This document shows, piece after piece, positions 3,539-46,011 of a stretch of 64,000 nucleotides of DNA (positions are counted from its first letter, which is position 1; each line of letters starts with the position of its first letter). Both the position numbers and the translations under genes were made by a program. Source of the stretch: an uncultured Luminiphilus sp. (lineage in GTDB: Bacteria > Pseudomonadota > Gammaproteobacteria > Pseudomonadales > Halieaceae); contig CALSUB010000010.1 in NCBI GenBank assembly GCA_943789425.1, forward strand, positions 1 through 64,000. The letters are read 5' to 3'. Under the pieces are notes generated by a model, which saw only the letters and a list, made by a program, of their open reading frames with translations, ran no database searches and was not told the origin of the DNA.

Positions 3539-4713
3539 ATGACTGCGAAACAGGTGTTGAATGCCAAGGCCGGTCAGAAGGTGGGTCTCGGCAATGGTCT
3601 CAGGCTGGTTTGCGATGCACGCAACGGCGCACGCTACTTCGAGCTACGCAAGCGAGTACGTGGGAAAGACTACTCATGGGGTGTCGGAAGCGTTGAGACC
3701 CTCACTATCGCCGGGTGCAACAAGGCGCTCTCATCGGCACGACAGCAAGCAGACAAGATTCTCGATGCCCTGGCGTCAGGTGCCGACCCTTCAGGCATAG
3801 GCAAATCTGCGAAGTCAGGAGAGGTTCTGACAGGTCGCTCTCCCCTGTCCGTGATGTCGCCAAGCAATTTGTTGCCAGCAAGGGTCAGGAGTGGTCGAGC
3901 GAGGCATACCGAGACCGCTGGCTCAACAGTCTGGAGATTCACTGCAAGTGGCTCATGGACTCCCCTATCGCAGACGTCACTCTGGATACCGTGATTGAGG
4001 CCATCCAGCCTCACTTGGCTGTCCGCACTGATACCGCTGAACGCATGGCCAGGAAGCTGTCAGCGCATCTTCACCTACGCTGAGGTACTGAAGCTCCGCA
4101 CCGGCGACCCTGCCGACCAGAAGTACCTGAGTCATGTGCTACCCCAGAAAGGCAAGGTAGCGCCCGTGAAGACACCGTGAGGCAATGGACTACCGTGATT
4201 GCCCTGCCCTGTTCGCCAAGCTCTCAGAGAGCGATACAGCCAGCGCCAAGGCACTTCAGTGGGTGATGCTATCGGCCTGCCGTAGTGCTGAGGGCAGGAA
4301 GATGACATGGGATGAGATTGACCTCGGAACCGGGTCTGGACGATGGAGCAGAACGCACCAAACAACGCAGAGAGTTCGCGTCTCCAATCACGGATGCAAT
4401 GGTGGAACTCATTCAGTGGGCCTCACCCATGCGACGCAGTGAGTTCGTGCTAACTCTGACCGGCACAGCCGCTGAGTGATGTTGCCATCAGCAAACTGCT
4501 CAAACGCCACACGTCTCAGAGCAATCACCGTTCACGGTTTGAGATCATCATTCAGGACTTGGTGCCAAGAAACAGGCGTCGAGGAATCGCTCGCTGAGAT
4601 GCTGTCTGAACCATCTCGTCGGTCGCAATGTCCGCCGCGCATACGCCCGTTCCGACATGCTTGAGGAGAGGATGCGGGTGATGTCTGATTGGGCTGACTT
4701 CCTGACCAACTGA
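3539..4713 (+). pseudogene. P4-type tyrosine integrase (DUF4102 arm domain), frameshifted
   Basis: The reading frame changes several times, but joined pieces give ~390 residues, the normal length for P4/IntS-type integrases. The N-terminus is the arm-binding domain (KVGLGNGLRLVCDARNGARY). A core-binding part follows (EAYRDRWLNSLEIHCKWL, then RIFTYAEVLKL). Catalytic pieces are visible: an HGLR box (VHGLRSSFRTW, ~4530) and, near the end in another frame, RRAYARSDMLEER with the nucleophile Tyr (~4640). The frame is broken near 3820, 4050, 4180, 4340 and 4610 (approximate), so more than one error is needed to explain it and it is probably truly inactive. It faces inward from the left att-like repeat. 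Confidence 0.85.
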
Positions 4714-28554: not shown

Positions 28555-30018
28555 ATGAAGGCATGTTCGCGTTACACTTTCGGCACTTACTCAGACGACG
28601 AGCTAGCACTGATGGCGAGCCCCTTACCCAAACATCCGCAGCTTCGCGGCAATTATGCGCCGATCAATTTTGAAGCGGTCTGTCAGGACTTGGTCATAGA
28701 GGGCAAAGTGCCAGAAGGCCTTTCAGGGTCGCTCTACCGCATTGGCCCCAACCCTAAGTTTGTGCCGGATCAAGGCTACCACTGGTTTTTTGGCACCGGC
28801 ATGGTGCACGCTTTCCACCTGCACGAAGGAAAAATTGATTACGTCAATCGCTGGGTGCGGACACCCAAATTTGAGGCAGAGTTGGCGGTGGGAACGAGCC
28901 TGCCAATGAGTATTGAGATTGACCCCGAAACCGGACAGTTGCAATCGGACCGACGCAACGGCTTGGCGAATACCCATATTATCTGGCATGCCGATCAGCT
29001 ATTGGCGCTAGAGGAGGGGAGTCACCCCTTTACTTTGTCTCCGAAAACCCTCGACTCGGAGGGGTATGGCCACTATGCCAATGGGCTGTCAGGGCCGATG
29101 ACGGCGCATCCAAAAATTGATCCGATCACGGGTGAGTTACATGGTTTTGGTTACATGTCTGACGCCCTGGGTAGTGCCGGCATGAGTTATCACGTGGTCG
29201 ACCAGCAAGGCGTTGTCACACGCTCCGACATCTTTACGGCTCCCTTTGCCGCCATGGTGCATGATTTTGCGGTCACGAGAGACTATGTGCTGTTTCCGCT
29301 CTTTCCGCTGACGTTTGATTTTAAGAGGATGGAGAAATTGGGCTCTCCGTTTGCCTTTGAACCTCAGGCCGGTGCGGTGATTGGCGTGTTGAAAAGGGGC
29401 GCTCCCACCAGTGAGATCCGATGGATTGAGGCGCCCGTCTGCTTTGTATTCCATTACTTAAACGCATGGAACGAGGGCGAGCAGATCACCTTTGACGCCA
29501 TCGACTTTTCGGTTGCGCCTAACTTTCCCGACACTGATGGCAATTTACCGGGGTTTACTGAGGCTCAGGGCACACTGACGCGTTGGCAACTTGATTTAGC
29601 AACGGGCGCTGTCGAACGTACGCCATTACTCGATCTGGCTTGCGAGTTTCCTCGCATTGATGATCGCTACGCGATGAAGCAGCATACACAGGCTTTTCTG
29701 GCTACCGCGTCACAGCGACAGCGCGGCGATGGCGGATTATTCCACGAGGTGACCCATTTGAATCTGGAGAGTGGTGCAACCCAAGTGTGGGATGCAGGTC
29801 TGGGCAATGGTGTTTCAGAACCGGTTTTTGTGCCGCGCCACGCGATTGCTGATGAGGGAGATGGATGGTTACTGGCAACCGTCTACGAGGCCACCAGTCA
29901 AGCGTCTTCACTCGTCATCTTGGACGCTACCGCGGTGTCACAAGGACCGATCGCCACCGCCAGATTGGACCACCGCATACCATTTGGTTTTCACGGCAGT
30001 TGGCGTGCAAACGAGTGA
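28555..30018 (+). CDS. Carotenoid cleavage / lignostilbene dioxygenase family (RPE65-like)
   Basis: 487 residues from ATG 28555; the Met at 28612 (MASPLPKHPQLRGNYAP) matches the family start better and may be the true one. A seven-bladed propeller enzyme: four iron-binding His are visible in conserved settings, H185 (TAHPKI), H236 (MVHDFAVT), H300 (FHYLNAW) and H480 (FGFHGSW). Also FFGTGMVHAF near the N-terminus. Substrates of the family are carotenoids, apocarotenoids or stilbenes. Carotenoid turnover fits a pigmented phototroph. Divergent from a P450. Confidence 0.93.
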   Translation: MKACSRYTFGTYSDDELALMASPLPKHPQLRGNYAPINFEAVCQDLVIEGKVPEGLSGSLYRIGPNPKFVPDQGYHWFFGTGMVHAFHLHEGKIDYVNRWVRTPKFEAELAVGTSLPMSIEIDPETGQLQSDRRNGLANTHIIWHADQLLALEEGSHPFTLSPKTLDSEGYGHYANGLSGPMTAHPKIDPITGELHGFGYMSDALGSAGMSYHVVDQQGVVTRSDIFTAPFAAMVHDFAVTRDYVLFPLFPLTFDFKRMEKLGSPFAFEPQAGAVIGVLKRGAPTSEIRWIEAPVCFVFHYLNAWNEGEQITFDAIDFSVAPNFPDTDGNLPGFTEAQGTLTRWQLDLATGAVERTPLLDLACEFPRIDDRYAMKQHTQAFLATASQRQRGDGGLFHEVTHLNLESGATQVWDAGLGNGVSEPVFVPRHAIADEGDGWLLATVYEATSQASSLVILDATAVSQGPIATARLDHRIPFGFHGSWRANE

Positions 30019-42780: not shown

Positions 42781-42897
42781 AGTTTAGGGACCTGGTGGTG
42801 AATAGTTGCTCGGTTGAGCCCAGAGGGATCAAGAGGTGTTTTTAACACAGTTGAACAGAGTGCGGGTGCCAGCCTTCAGTCACGTGCGGCGAACAGT

Positions 42898-43389
42898 ATG
42901 AGGCAATTGCTTAAGTTTGGTCATTCGATGACGGCGATCGCTTTTTTGGGCGCGGTTGCCGTGTTGTGGGTTTTGCATCAGCAGTTACCTGACCCCGAGG
43001 GGGCGCTCAGCCTTTATGCGTCGGGCCGCCAGGCGATGGAACGCATTGCCGTCTTACTGCTGCTCCCCTCGTTAGTGTTGTCTCTGCTTTTTGGCTTGTT
43101 CTCGATGGCGATGGTGTCGGGGTTCCACAATGCGCCTTGGGCGTGGGCTAAGTTTATTACGACGGTGGTCATGCTGGAGGGGACTTTGCTAGGTATCCAG
43201 AGCCCGATTGTCAAAGAGGCGCGTCTTGCCGAGGCCGCGCTCAATGATCCCACTAAGCTCGCACTGCTGGCGCAGAACTTATCAGCGGAGCAGTCGTCTC
43301 TGGTACTGATTGGTTTGGTTGCGACTGCTAATGTCGCGCTGGGCGTGTGGCGGCCGCAGTTCCGGTCTCGGGCTAAAGCATCGTCCTGA
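42898..43389 (+). CDS. Small four-helix membrane protein, unrecognised
   Basis: 163 residues from ATG 42898; the frame is open to 42814. Four hydrophobic segments are visible: TAIAFLGAVAVLWVLHQ, RIAVLLLLPSLVLSLLFGLF, WAKFITTVVMLEGTLLGI and LVLIGLVATANVALGVW, with charged turns between. One His (KFGHSM) precedes the first. I recognise no family. The end of the gene is antisense to a long extension of the BLUF frame. Confidence 0.6.
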   Translation: MRQLLKFGHSMTAIAFLGAVAVLWVLHQQLPDPEGALSLYASGRQAMERIAVLLLLPSLVLSLLFGLFSMAMVSGFHNAPWAWAKFITTVVMLEGTLLGIQSPIVKEARLAEAALNDPTKLALLAQNLSAEQSSLVLIGLVATANVALGVWRPQFRSRAKASS

Positions 43390-43859
43390 ACATCAGCGCG
43401 AGGCGTTTTCCACGGCTCAAATTCTTCGAGAAATTCCTGTGGTTGCGCGTCCACCGTCAGGAAATTTGAAAAGCCCGCAAGCGCTTCCGGGTTCACGCCA
43501 TCTAGATTCAAAAACCCCATTCGCCAGTCTGAGAATTCTCTGGTTTCTGTTTCGCCGCTGAACAAGATGCGCACATCTTTGTGTCGAGGATCTTGTTTGA
43601 TCACTTCAAAAATATGGTTTACCGCTGTCTGTTTACCCTCGAGCAGTTGGTAAAAAGAGCCTTCTCGATAGAGGAGCAAACCCGTCACGTCGTGCTCGGT
43701 ATTGGCAGTACGTGCGACGCCCAGCAGCGCAACGAGATCTTCCTGAGTGAAGTGCTCGGTTTCTGTGCTGACGTAGCACAGATGGAAGACAGCATTTTCA
43801 GGGGCTTGCGAGCCGCTATAATCTGTGGGGGAGTCTCCTTGGGCCTTATTATTTGACAT
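43014..43859 (-). CDS. BLUF-domain blue-light receptor (frame runs on beyond the domain)
   Basis: FAD-binding photoreceptor domain at residues ~24-120. The key positions match AppA with a constant offset of eight: Tyr29 (AppA 21), Asn53 (45), Gln71 (63), Trp112 (104) and Met114 (106), so the photocycle site is complete. After ~residue 157 the frame continues antisense to the membrane-protein gene with low-complexity Ser/Ala/Arg content that does not look like protein. A stop in a neighbouring frame at 43373-43375 suggests the true protein is ~155 residues and that an indel removed its stop. It is divergent from acsF, sharing a 182-bp region. Confidence 0.9.
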   Translation of the reverse strand: MSNNKAQGDSPTDYSGSQAPENAVFHLCYVSTETEHFTQEDLVALLGVARTANTEHDVTGLLLYREGSFYQLLEGKQTAVNHIFEVIKQDPRHKDVRILFSGETETREFSDWRMGFLNLDGVNPEALAGFSNFLTVDAQPQEFLEEFEPWKTPRADVQDDALARDRNCGRHTPSATLAVATKPISTRDDCSADKFCASSASLVGSLSAASARRASLTIGLWIPSKVPSSMTTVVINLAHAQGALWNPDTIAIENKPKSRDNTNEGSSSKTAMRSIAWRPDA

Positions 43860-43937
43860 GGTGCCCCTGCTGGTGACGCGTTAGGTCGCCGCAACGCGGT
43901 GACTCCTTTCGCGCAGATTGCTTGCTACCGGGCCAAT

Positions 43938-43978
43938 AGTCAAATAAAATTGACATATATGTGGTAAAAAAGTTAGAC
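43938..43978 (+). promoter_or_regulatory. acsF promoter with PpsR-like operator
   Basis: AGT-N12-ACA at 43938-43955, with palindromic arms GTCAA...TTGAC; read on the other strand it is TGT-N12-ACT, one base off the TGT-N12-ACA site of PpsR/CrtJ. It overlaps a -35 TTGACA (43950-43955). A weak -10 TTAGAC lies 17 bases later. A short palindrome ACATATATGT is at 43953-43962. Placement on the -35 fits repression. Ribosome site GGGGA precedes acsF at 44032-44036. The operator call is inference. Confidence 0.45.
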
Positions 43979-44041
43979 ACTTTGCTGCGGGAACTTGTTA
44001 ACTAAGGCGCAGAGGGCGTTAAAGACAGATGGGGAAATACG

Positions 44042-45109
44042 ATGAGTGAGTTAATCAACGATGACGCTGCGGTCAATCTAACGACCCAGCAAGCCTTGGA
44101 AGGCAGGGCGTTAGCACCTCGATTTTACTGCACTGACTATCCGGCAATGGAGCACATCGATGTCACGCCGGTTCGAGCAGAATGGGATCAGATGATGCGC
44201 GCTTTCGAACTCGATACGAATCGAGGCCACTTCAAGCAAAACTATGAGTACGATCCGGCGATTTTAGAAGCGGACCCAGCACTCAAAGAGGAATTTCTGG
44301 ATTTTTTGGTCTCGTCGATTACGGCTGAATACTCCGGTTGTGTGCTGTACCAAGAAATTGAAAAAAATGTGAGTAACCCCGATATCGCTAAATTGATGCG
44401 CTATATGGCGAGAGACGAGTCTCGCCATGCGGGTTTCATTAATAAAGCGTTAAACAAACTGGGTGTGGCGGTTGATTTGGGCGTGTTGAAGCGCGAGAAG
44501 GAGTACACCTTTTTCAAGCCAAAGTTTATTTACTACGCCACCTATTTGTCCGAAAAAATTGGCTACGCGCGCTACATCACCATCTTCCGGCATCTTGAGC
44601 GGCATCCAGAACAGCGCTTCCATCCGATCTTTAAATGGTTTCTGGAATGGTGCAATGACGAGTTTTCTCACGGTGAGGCGTTCGCCCTCATTATGAGATC
44701 GGATCCGAAGTTATTGCGAGGCATGAACAAGCTCTGGATTCGTTTCTTTTTGGTTGCTGTTTATTCGACCATGTATGTCAGAGATCATGCTCGACCAAAG
44801 CTCTATGAGGCCTTTGGTATGGATGTCACCGAATTTGACTATCAAGTTTTTGACATCACGACCGAGATTTCACGACAGGTTTTCCCAATGACACTGAATA
44901 CCGATGACCCGCGTTTCCGCGCTGGGCTCGAGCGAATGCGGGAATTGCAAATGGCTCGCGACGCATTGGAAGAAAAACCTGGTATCGCAGCTAAGATGAA
45001 GCGACTGGGCTTGGGCGCCCTGTTTGGGCTGACATTTGCCCGATTATATTTATTGCCGACTCAGCCCAATGCCATGCCTGAACAGGTTTGTATGCAACCC
45101 GCCTGGTAA
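44042..45109 (+). CDS. acsF: Aerobic Mg-protoporphyrin IX monomethyl ester oxidative cyclase
   Basis: 355 residues, normal length. Forms the isocyclic ring of bacteriochlorophyll using O2. The di-iron ligands are all present: Glu96 (TAEYSGC), Glu126-x-x-His129 (RDESRHAGF), and Glu207-x-x-His210 (NDEFSHGEAFA), with Glu171 near YLSEKIGYARYIT. The long near-invariant FRPKF-like block (FFKPKFIYYATYLSEK) and the C-terminal MQPAW are typical of AcsF. No other photosynthesis gene is in the window, so it lies outside a photosynthesis gene cluster or is a second copy. Divergent from the BLUF gene. Confidence 0.95.
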   Translation: MSELINDDAAVNLTTQQALEGRALAPRFYCTDYPAMEHIDVTPVRAEWDQMMRAFELDTNRGHFKQNYEYDPAILEADPALKEEFLDFLVSSITAEYSGCVLYQEIEKNVSNPDIAKLMRYMARDESRHAGFINKALNKLGVAVDLGVLKREKEYTFFKPKFIYYATYLSEKIGYARYITIFRHLERHPEQRFHPIFKWFLEWCNDEFSHGEAFALIMRSDPKLLRGMNKLWIRFFLVAVYSTMYVRDHARPKLYEAFGMDVTEFDYQVFDITTEISRQVFPMTLNTDDPRFRAGLERMRELQMARDALEEKPGIAAKMKRLGLGALFGLTFARLYLLPTQPNAMPEQVCMQPAW

Positions 45110-45239: not shown

Positions 45240-46011
45240 ATGTCTGTTGTTACGGTAGAAGAGCAGTCGGGTGTTGCACTGGTCACCCTCAATCGTCCCG
45301 ACGCCAACAATGCGCTGAACCGAGCGCTTTCTGAAGCAATTACTGAGACTTTCTTAGCGCTTGCTACTTCGGAGACGGTGCGCGCGATTGTCCTCACAGG
45401 CGCGGGCCGCAGTTTTTGCGCTGGCGTTGATTTAAAGGCTTTATCGGACGAGCCAGAACTGCTCACGTCGGGGATGGGCTTGGGCCCAGCCTCACCGATC
45501 GTCGTCGCATTAGAGCAGTGCCCTCAGCCGATTATCGGTGCGATCAATGGCGCAGCGGTTACGGGTGGATTCGAATTGGCACTGGCTTGTGATTACTTGT
45601 TTGCGAGCACCGAGGCTCGTTTTGCCGATACGCATGCACGAGTGGGTATTTTGCCAGGATGGGGTTTGTCTCAAAAACTGACTCGTATCATTGGCATCAA
45701 CCGTGCCCGTGAAATGAGCTTAGCGGGTAATTTCATTGATGCGCATCGTGCTGAGGCCTGGGGTTTGGTGAATCGCGTTTGTGCCCCAGAAAACTTAATG
45801 GATGAGACGCTGGCCAGTGCAGGCCAAGTTGCCGACGGCGACCGCCAACGCTGTGGTCGCCTTAAAAGCGCTAATGAATGATGGTGCGAAACAAAACTTG
45901 GGCGATGCGCTAGTGCTAGAGGGCGAGCGGGGTAATGCCTTCGCTAAAACCGTCGACTACAGCCAGATGGGTGAGCGCTTGGCCGCACTGCGCAAGCGGG
46001 CGGCGAAATAA
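45240..46011 (+). CDS. Enoyl-CoA hydratase/isomerase (one frameshift at ~45822)
   Basis: Read with one G removed near 45822 (GCAGGCCAAG for GCAGCCAAG), the protein has 256 residues. Crotonase features: oxyanion-hole SFCAGVDLKAL (~58-68) and GAINGAAVTGGFELALACD (~96-114), where Glu109 is in the usual catalytic place, and ADTHARVGILPGWG. Start ATG 45240 after GGAGA; ATG 45228 is also in frame. Catabolic role likely; pathway partner unknown. The single indel looks like sequence error. Confidence 0.85.

Follow-up and report, generated by a model that had tools for sequence, protein, structure and literature searches.

Does a gammaproteobacterium keep a local light switch on chlorophyll synthesis, with the photoreceptor gene next to its target? 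The question is raised by a 64,000-nucleotide stretch of DNA (hereafter the window) from the 1.70 Mb assembly of an uncultured Luminiphilus sp., in which a BLUF gene and acsF diverge from a gap that holds a PpsR-like site. AppA, a BLUF protein, antagonises PpsR in Rhodobacter, and a sequence-only reading of the window had proposed a comparable arrangement here. Our computational follow-up confirmed the underlying observation, with corrections given below. The genes concerned are the following.

42814..43389, plus strand: small protein gene convergent with the BLUF gene, product probably membrane (read from the sequence)
43389..43859, minus strand: short, single-domain BLUF photoreceptor gene (PF04940, 104 bits)
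43860..44041, no strand: gap from which BLUF and acsF diverge, 182 bp
44042..45109, plus strand: acsF, Mg-protoporphyrin IX monomethyl ester (oxidative) cyclase (TIGR02029, 515 bits; cut-off 192.5)

The PF04940 and TIGR02029 matches lie on opposite strands, which bears out the earlier description of a BLUF gene facing away from acsF. The product of the convergent gene matched no Pfam family at 0.001 and none in NCBIfam at E 1; a homologue stands beside BLUF in most of the relocated loci described below and in some cluster-located loci.

The BLUF protein and its pairing with acsF

The BLUF protein (P0001) matched PF04940 with 104.4 bits against a curated cut-off of 25, and its photocycle residues, read from the sequence, are Y29, N53, Q71, W112, and M114. 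The spacing equals that of the AppA photocycle positions 21, 45, 63, 104, and 106, and the claim that all five AppA residues are present thus held. The protein and the AppA BLUF chains 1yrx and 2bun had equally long aligned ranges. In alignment A1 (n = 29; first-row numbering), Q67, W108, and M110 were invariant, and Y25 and N49 were conserved in at least 90% of the rows. Past the BLUF domain, likeness to AppA was unsupported: AppA is a long protein with heme-binding and Cys-rich parts after BLUF, whereas the window's protein lacks these parts and, according to Pfam, contains a BLUF domain only. The BLUF proteins of relatives stop approximately 45 residues past the domain.

These relatives share a conserved C-terminal tail of the LSRGKRLALMFR type, a candidate contact surface, and the closest of them end in ..LSRGKRLALMFRTML. 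The tail is missing in the present assembly because the BLUF reading frame is shifted near 43420-43425, at the 3' end of the gene, as judged by comparison of the C-termini. The two BLUF matches of this 79.6% complete genome fall within open frames that are 288 (frame-shifted) and 171 amino acids long. An enoyl-CoA hydratase gene near position 45842 of the window also looks frame-shifted relative to relatives, and the PpsR match is split at G000:C13:104236, its C-terminal piece lying in another frame. Since all three genes look shifted, indel assembly error is likely. A predicted structure of a close relative matched the BLUF structures of AppA, PixD-type proteins, and BlsA; its BLUF fold was good, but with a tail pLDDT of approximately 50 the model was not used to locate a contact surface.

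AcsF exceeded its cut-off in 57 of the 140 family genomes, and 59 acsF loci were examined (58 fetched loci and the window). The divergent BLUF-acsF pair is present in 54 of these, and in the other five (L074, L079, L090, L092, and L094) the contig ends at or close to acsF. The pair is thus conserved in relatives, a point that the sequence-only reading had asked to be checked. Twenty-nine of the 54 pairs adjoin bchP; 20, including that of the window, have acyl-CoA dehydrogenase, enoyl-CoA hydratase, thioesterase, or AlkA-type neighbours and no bchP (hereafter relocated loci); and five have no neighbour class, L071 among them having been kept out of the relocated group by hand. In the window's clade, the pair is located outside the photosynthesis cluster. 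In a BLUF tree of 64 rows, with the frame-shifted window row excluded, the 19 relocated rows formed one group with low support (86/43); because these relatives group together, if weakly, a single move of the pair is likely.

A linked-BLUF profile built from 29 proteins, with a subfamily threshold of >200 bits, found the subfamily in 56 of the 140 family genomes (next best BLUF, 121 bits) and in 54 of the 57 genomes with acsF. Among named genomes, the profile returned 61 loci: 55 carry the pair, L158 is cut at a contig end, L174-L177 hold other BLUF proteins, and L168 holds a linked BLUF gene without acsF. The named subfamily loci are mostly from Luminiphilus and other Halieaceae, examples being L. 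syltensis NOR5-1B, HTCC2080, Pseudohaliea rubra, and Chromatocurvus halotolerans. Outside the family, BLUF adjoins acsF in three of the four loci of an order-level sample (L108, L110, and L111; not L109) and in none of the four loci of a class-level sample. The former comprised 390 genomes, 11 with acsF, seven of those in the window's family; the latter comprised 369, five with acsF, one being the window's own.

Such pairing could reflect an effect of BLUF on AcsF itself or on the step that it catalyses. The counts within the family (54 of 59 loci, with contig ends at the other five) and in the profile search (55 of 61) agree with this explanation, but outside the family acsF stands without a nearby BLUF gene in one of the four order-level and all four class-level genomes, and in the outgroup genome G876, described below, BLUF has a PpsR gene nearby and acsF lies elsewhere. 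We regard a direct action on AcsF as highly unlikely.

Putative operators and promoter elements in the divergent gap

The elements placed in the gap are listed here; the promoter assignments are predictions.

43922..43927, plus strand: putative acsF -35, TTGCTA
43938..43955, no strand: operator 1, AGTCAAATAAAATTGACA, PpsR/CrtJ-type palindrome, AGT-N12-ACA, identical in 20 of 20 relocated-clade loci
43945..43950, plus strand: putative acsF -10, TAAAAT, within operator 1
43962..43979, no strand: operator 2, TGGTAAAAAAGTTAGACA, the weaker member of the tandem, its start 24 bp downstream of that of operator 1

The AGT-N12-ACA element of operator 1 is present as claimed, one base off the PpsR/CrtJ consensus. 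A single site of this kind is no evidence by itself because TGT-N12-ACA with up to one mismatch occurs at chance level in the whole window (215 observed, 251 expected); the 18-mer of operator 1 has a single occurrence when up to three mismatches are allowed, against an expectation of 0.03. We scored sites as matches out of 10 to TGTCA-N8-TGACA. The two operators form a tandem TGT-N12-ACA arrangement, in which site 1 is one base off and site 2 departs by two more of the ten, and they are the only pair scoring 9 and 7 at 24 to 26 bp in the 64 kb. Ten Markov resamples of the window contained 0.0 such pairs on average.

Across the 54 loci with the pair, the best site in the gap scored at least 9 in 38 loci, versus 0.65% of Markov resamples, and at least 8 in 49 loci, versus 8.9%. 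A second site 22 to 28 bp past the first scored at least 6 in 46 loci (13.6% of resamples) and at least 7 in 34 (2.6%), both counts resting on a first anchoring of operator 1 that rewarded TTG and TA columns. All 46 second sites lie 24, 25, or 26 bp from the first, and site 2 scores below 6 in the other eight loci. Column counts from this first anchoring are circular because of the bonus; the promoter counts quoted below come from an anchoring that ignores the TTG/TA columns and favours a partner site 24 to 26 bp downstream. Site 1 begins with A in 37 loci, G in 11, and T in 6, so that the one-base departure remarked on earlier is the usual form (non-TGT start in 48 of 54). Conservation of the motif before acsF, which the earlier proposal required, was found, the 18-mer being identical in 20 of 20 relocated loci, and the gap between the palindromes is 6 bp in 18 of these 20.

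The sequence-only reading had the site overlap the acsF -35, which it took to be TTGACA. This placement is doubtful: TTGACA is part of the PpsR palindrome, and the model was set aside because a TAnnnT follows 16 to 18 bp on in only 1 of the 54 loci, though summed TTGACA/TATAAT matches do not separate the two models (8.17 versus 8.09 of 12, the latter being the best of three spacers). In the alternative model, TTGCTA and TAAAAT are separated by a 17-bp spacer, and the predicted acsF start is near 43957. All 20 relocated loci have TTG at offset -16 from site 1 and TAnnnT at offset +7; among the other 34 family loci, 28 have the TTG, 32 the TAnnnT, and 28 both. Four of the six loci that fail the model have TTGAA one base nearer together with TATAAT, and L044 and L049 have neither. 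Among five outgroup loci that took no part in setting the model, it holds in L149, L152, and L156 and fails in L157 and L161; L110 and L111, which are the same places as the last two, have good tandem sites and likewise fail the TTG/TAnnnT model. Judging from this geometry, operator 1 likely covers the acsF -10 rather than the -35.

Could the conserved block be a plain sigma-70 promoter that resembles a PpsR site by chance? The palindrome contains TTGACA, which is the -35 consensus, the motif taken singly is no commoner in the window than chance predicts, and the summed promoter matches are about equal. However, the outer half-site and the tandem spacing are conserved, TTGACA has a suitably spaced TAnnnT in one locus of 54, and the tandem pattern recurs in the photosynthesis cluster of the same genome. 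This explanation is extremely unlikely in our judgement. A conserved promoter directed toward BLUF was rejected, since candidates occurred in at most 8 of 20 loci, and the case for BLUF control by these sites therefore draws mainly on L168.

PpsR genes in the family and in outgroups

The proposed switch presupposes a PpsR gene, and the window's genome has one, with a TIGR02040 match of 280.5 bits against a curated cut-off of 275.4. It is the only one, and its neighbours on C13, a contig other than the window's, are bch genes (identified by eye). Under the 9 and 7 pair rule, 55 kb of this cluster contig contained four pairs (73028, 85278, 87377, and 102841). Three of them reach 8 and 8 of 10 at a spacing of 25 to 26 bp and lie, with genes assigned by eye, upstream of bchC, in the crtE-crtC interval, and close to the starts of bchF and ppsR. 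At G000:C13:73028, the candidate tandem pair scores 9 and 7 of 10 at 25 bp. Single sites were not enriched in the cluster contig, with 21 at up to two mismatches in 55 kb versus 31 in the 64-kb window. Off this contig, a PpsR-like palindrome, AGTCATTATTTAATGACA, was seen at G000:C14:16104-16121. The genome also encodes a second, distant BLUF (G000:C9:7757-8035), and several relatives have comparable second BLUF matches; no tandem pair precedes the C9 gene, only a weak site scoring 7 of 10.

At a threshold of E up to 1e-20, PpsR matches occurred in 62 of the 140 family genomes, including 55 of the 56 with the linked BLUF (lists compared by eye). The exception, G067 (87% complete), has the BLUF-acsF pair and no PpsR match. 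Seven of the 62 PpsR genomes are without the linked BLUF (G069, G072, G074, G077, G082, G083, and G088); in three of them acsF is at a contig end, and in four no acsF exceeded the cut-off.

Four outgroup genomes (G876-G879) were picked before the PpsR search, G876 for L168, which is without acsF, and the other three as outgroup-like. In all four, the linked BLUF gene lies near a second PpsR gene, intact (G876 and G878) or degraded (G877 and G879), besides the main PpsR. In L168, bchP and PpsR are followed by bacteriophytochrome, heme oxygenase (opposite strand), and BLUF genes and then by crtF-type and crtE-type genes, the last two named from their Pfam domains. The gap between heme oxygenase and BLUF contains TGTAAAGAAAAACTCACA (3849-3866) and TGTAAACTATATAAGACA (3874-3891), which together make a perfect TGT-N12-ACA tandem with 25-bp spacing, seen in 1 of 20000 resamples. 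G876 has PpsR genes of 348 bits on C70, the contig of L168 (over the cut-off), and of 475 bits on C32; its acsF is apart from BLUF, on C74, after a gene of puh-acsF type (by eye). In G878, a second PpsR gene that also exceeds the cut-off (393 bits; L187:2877-4451) comes after the pair and separates acsF from bchP. G877 (C72:35444-35671) and G879 (C119:48084-48707) have PpsR fragments of at most 82 bits near acsF, and each retains one full PpsR. In the BLUF tree, L168 falls inside the linked subfamily, where it pairs with L176; the branch is very long and was badly trimmed, and the tree therefore gives weak support to this placement. Red and blue sensor genes are grouped at one repressor gene in L168:1-6472 (G876:C70), and the window's family seems to have lost the second PpsR.

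The same data bear on whether the pair reflects co-regulation only, with PpsR controlling acsF and perhaps BLUF, and the BLUF protein having a partner other than PpsR. Short BLUF proteins have varied partners according to the excerpted text of PMC6712483, and the conserved LSRGKRLALMFR-type tail would suit any dedicated partner. Against this stand the presence of PpsR in 55 of 56 family genomes with the subfamily and the position of BLUF near a second PpsR, intact or degraded, in the four outgroup genomes. We consider co-regulation alone possible but rather unlikely.

A proposed blue-light input to PpsR

The reading that we favour, and hold to be reasonably probable, is a divergent cassette in which PpsR represses acsF through the tandem sites and a BLUF protein of the same regulon feeds blue light to PpsR. 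PpsR would bind the palindromes at 43938-43955 and 43962-43979, over the acsF -10 and start region, and, once bound, would repress acsF and hence a step toward bacteriochlorophyll. The BLUF gene would belong to the same PpsR regulon and be controlled from the same sites; this, like PpsR occupancy, is predicted from sequence. By analogy with AppA (BLUF) and LdaP (LOV), the BLUF protein would contact PpsR directly, relieving repression in the dark and leaving it in force under blue light.

The AppA-PpsR system of Rhodobacter sphaeroides has in common with this locus a BLUF sensor, PpsR as a photosynthesis-gene repressor, and TGT-N12-ACA operators. Unlike that system, the window's BLUF is one short domain, and its gene diverges from a target gene; a single-domain BLUF that works like AppA, yet is not an AppA, is the best reading. 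If the second PpsR, seemingly lost in the window's family, was the ancestral partner, BLUF would have passed to the remaining PpsR, and its action there is less certain. We give even chances to a broader account, in which the dedicated single-domain BLUF subfamily is a gammaproteobacterial minimal AppA, both target and partner of PpsR. In this account it arose beside a second PpsR (with a bacteriophytochrome in one lineage), joined acsF over a shared tandem operator, and left the cluster with both in the window's Luminiphilus clade as a self-contained switch.

With PpsR present and the sites conserved, the best reading is still a PpsR-controlled light switch whose receptor gene adjoins the target, but the idea is not unprecedented (PMC2654016, PMC3176799; both in excerpt). 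In 2009, a single-domain BLUF was proposed to modulate PpsR in Congregibacter litoralis KT71, whose cluster has 15 PpsR sites, 12 of them in tandem 7 or 8 bp apart, and this link was suggested without a mechanism for the blue-light pigment decrease in NOR5/OM60 aerobic phototrophs (PMC2654016, in excerpt). In 2011, acsF ("ascF") was placed near BLUF in the NOR5/OM60 clade (excerpt of PMC3176799). These proposals share the clade, the type of neighbourhood, and the logic of the window's pair. Relative to the excerpts, the divergent promoter, the conservation of the operators, the pair outside the cluster, and BLUF beside a second PpsR are new. No title or abstract opening among the matches listed, mostly outside the subscription literature, concerned an acsF-BLUF promoter. 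The Luminiphilus-type pair over a conserved PpsR-type site, also found in some relatives, supports the published BLUF-PpsR idea, which the tandem operator, the likely promoter geometry, the BLUF subfamily and its tail, and the second-PpsR outgroups now make directly testable.

Two further systems resemble the predicted role, as far as the excerpted sources go. LdaP of Dinoroseobacter shibae is a blue-light antirepressor of PpsR that acts by protein contact and is active in the dark; it differs in being a LOV protein of an alphaproteobacterium (PMC10890935). BlsA of Acinetobacter is a short BLUF that binds and antagonises transcriptional repressors, but its partners are Fur and AcoN, and no phototrophy is involved (PMC6712483). 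Blue light lowers pigment in C. litoralis (PMC2654016, in excerpt), and in L. syltensis and P. rubra pigment also falls under green light (PMC3666943, in excerpt), the latter effect going beyond what BLUF alone would explain and counting against the proposal. In Rubrivivax, a spacing of 8 or 9 bp alters the redox dependence of PpsR binding (excerpt of PMC4452267); because spacing has this effect there, the acsF response here may, by analogy, differ from that of the cluster genes. Elsewhere in the window, a gene resembling carotenoid or stilbene cleavage dioxygenases lies at 28555-30018; it matches three families, in each case below the curated cut-off.
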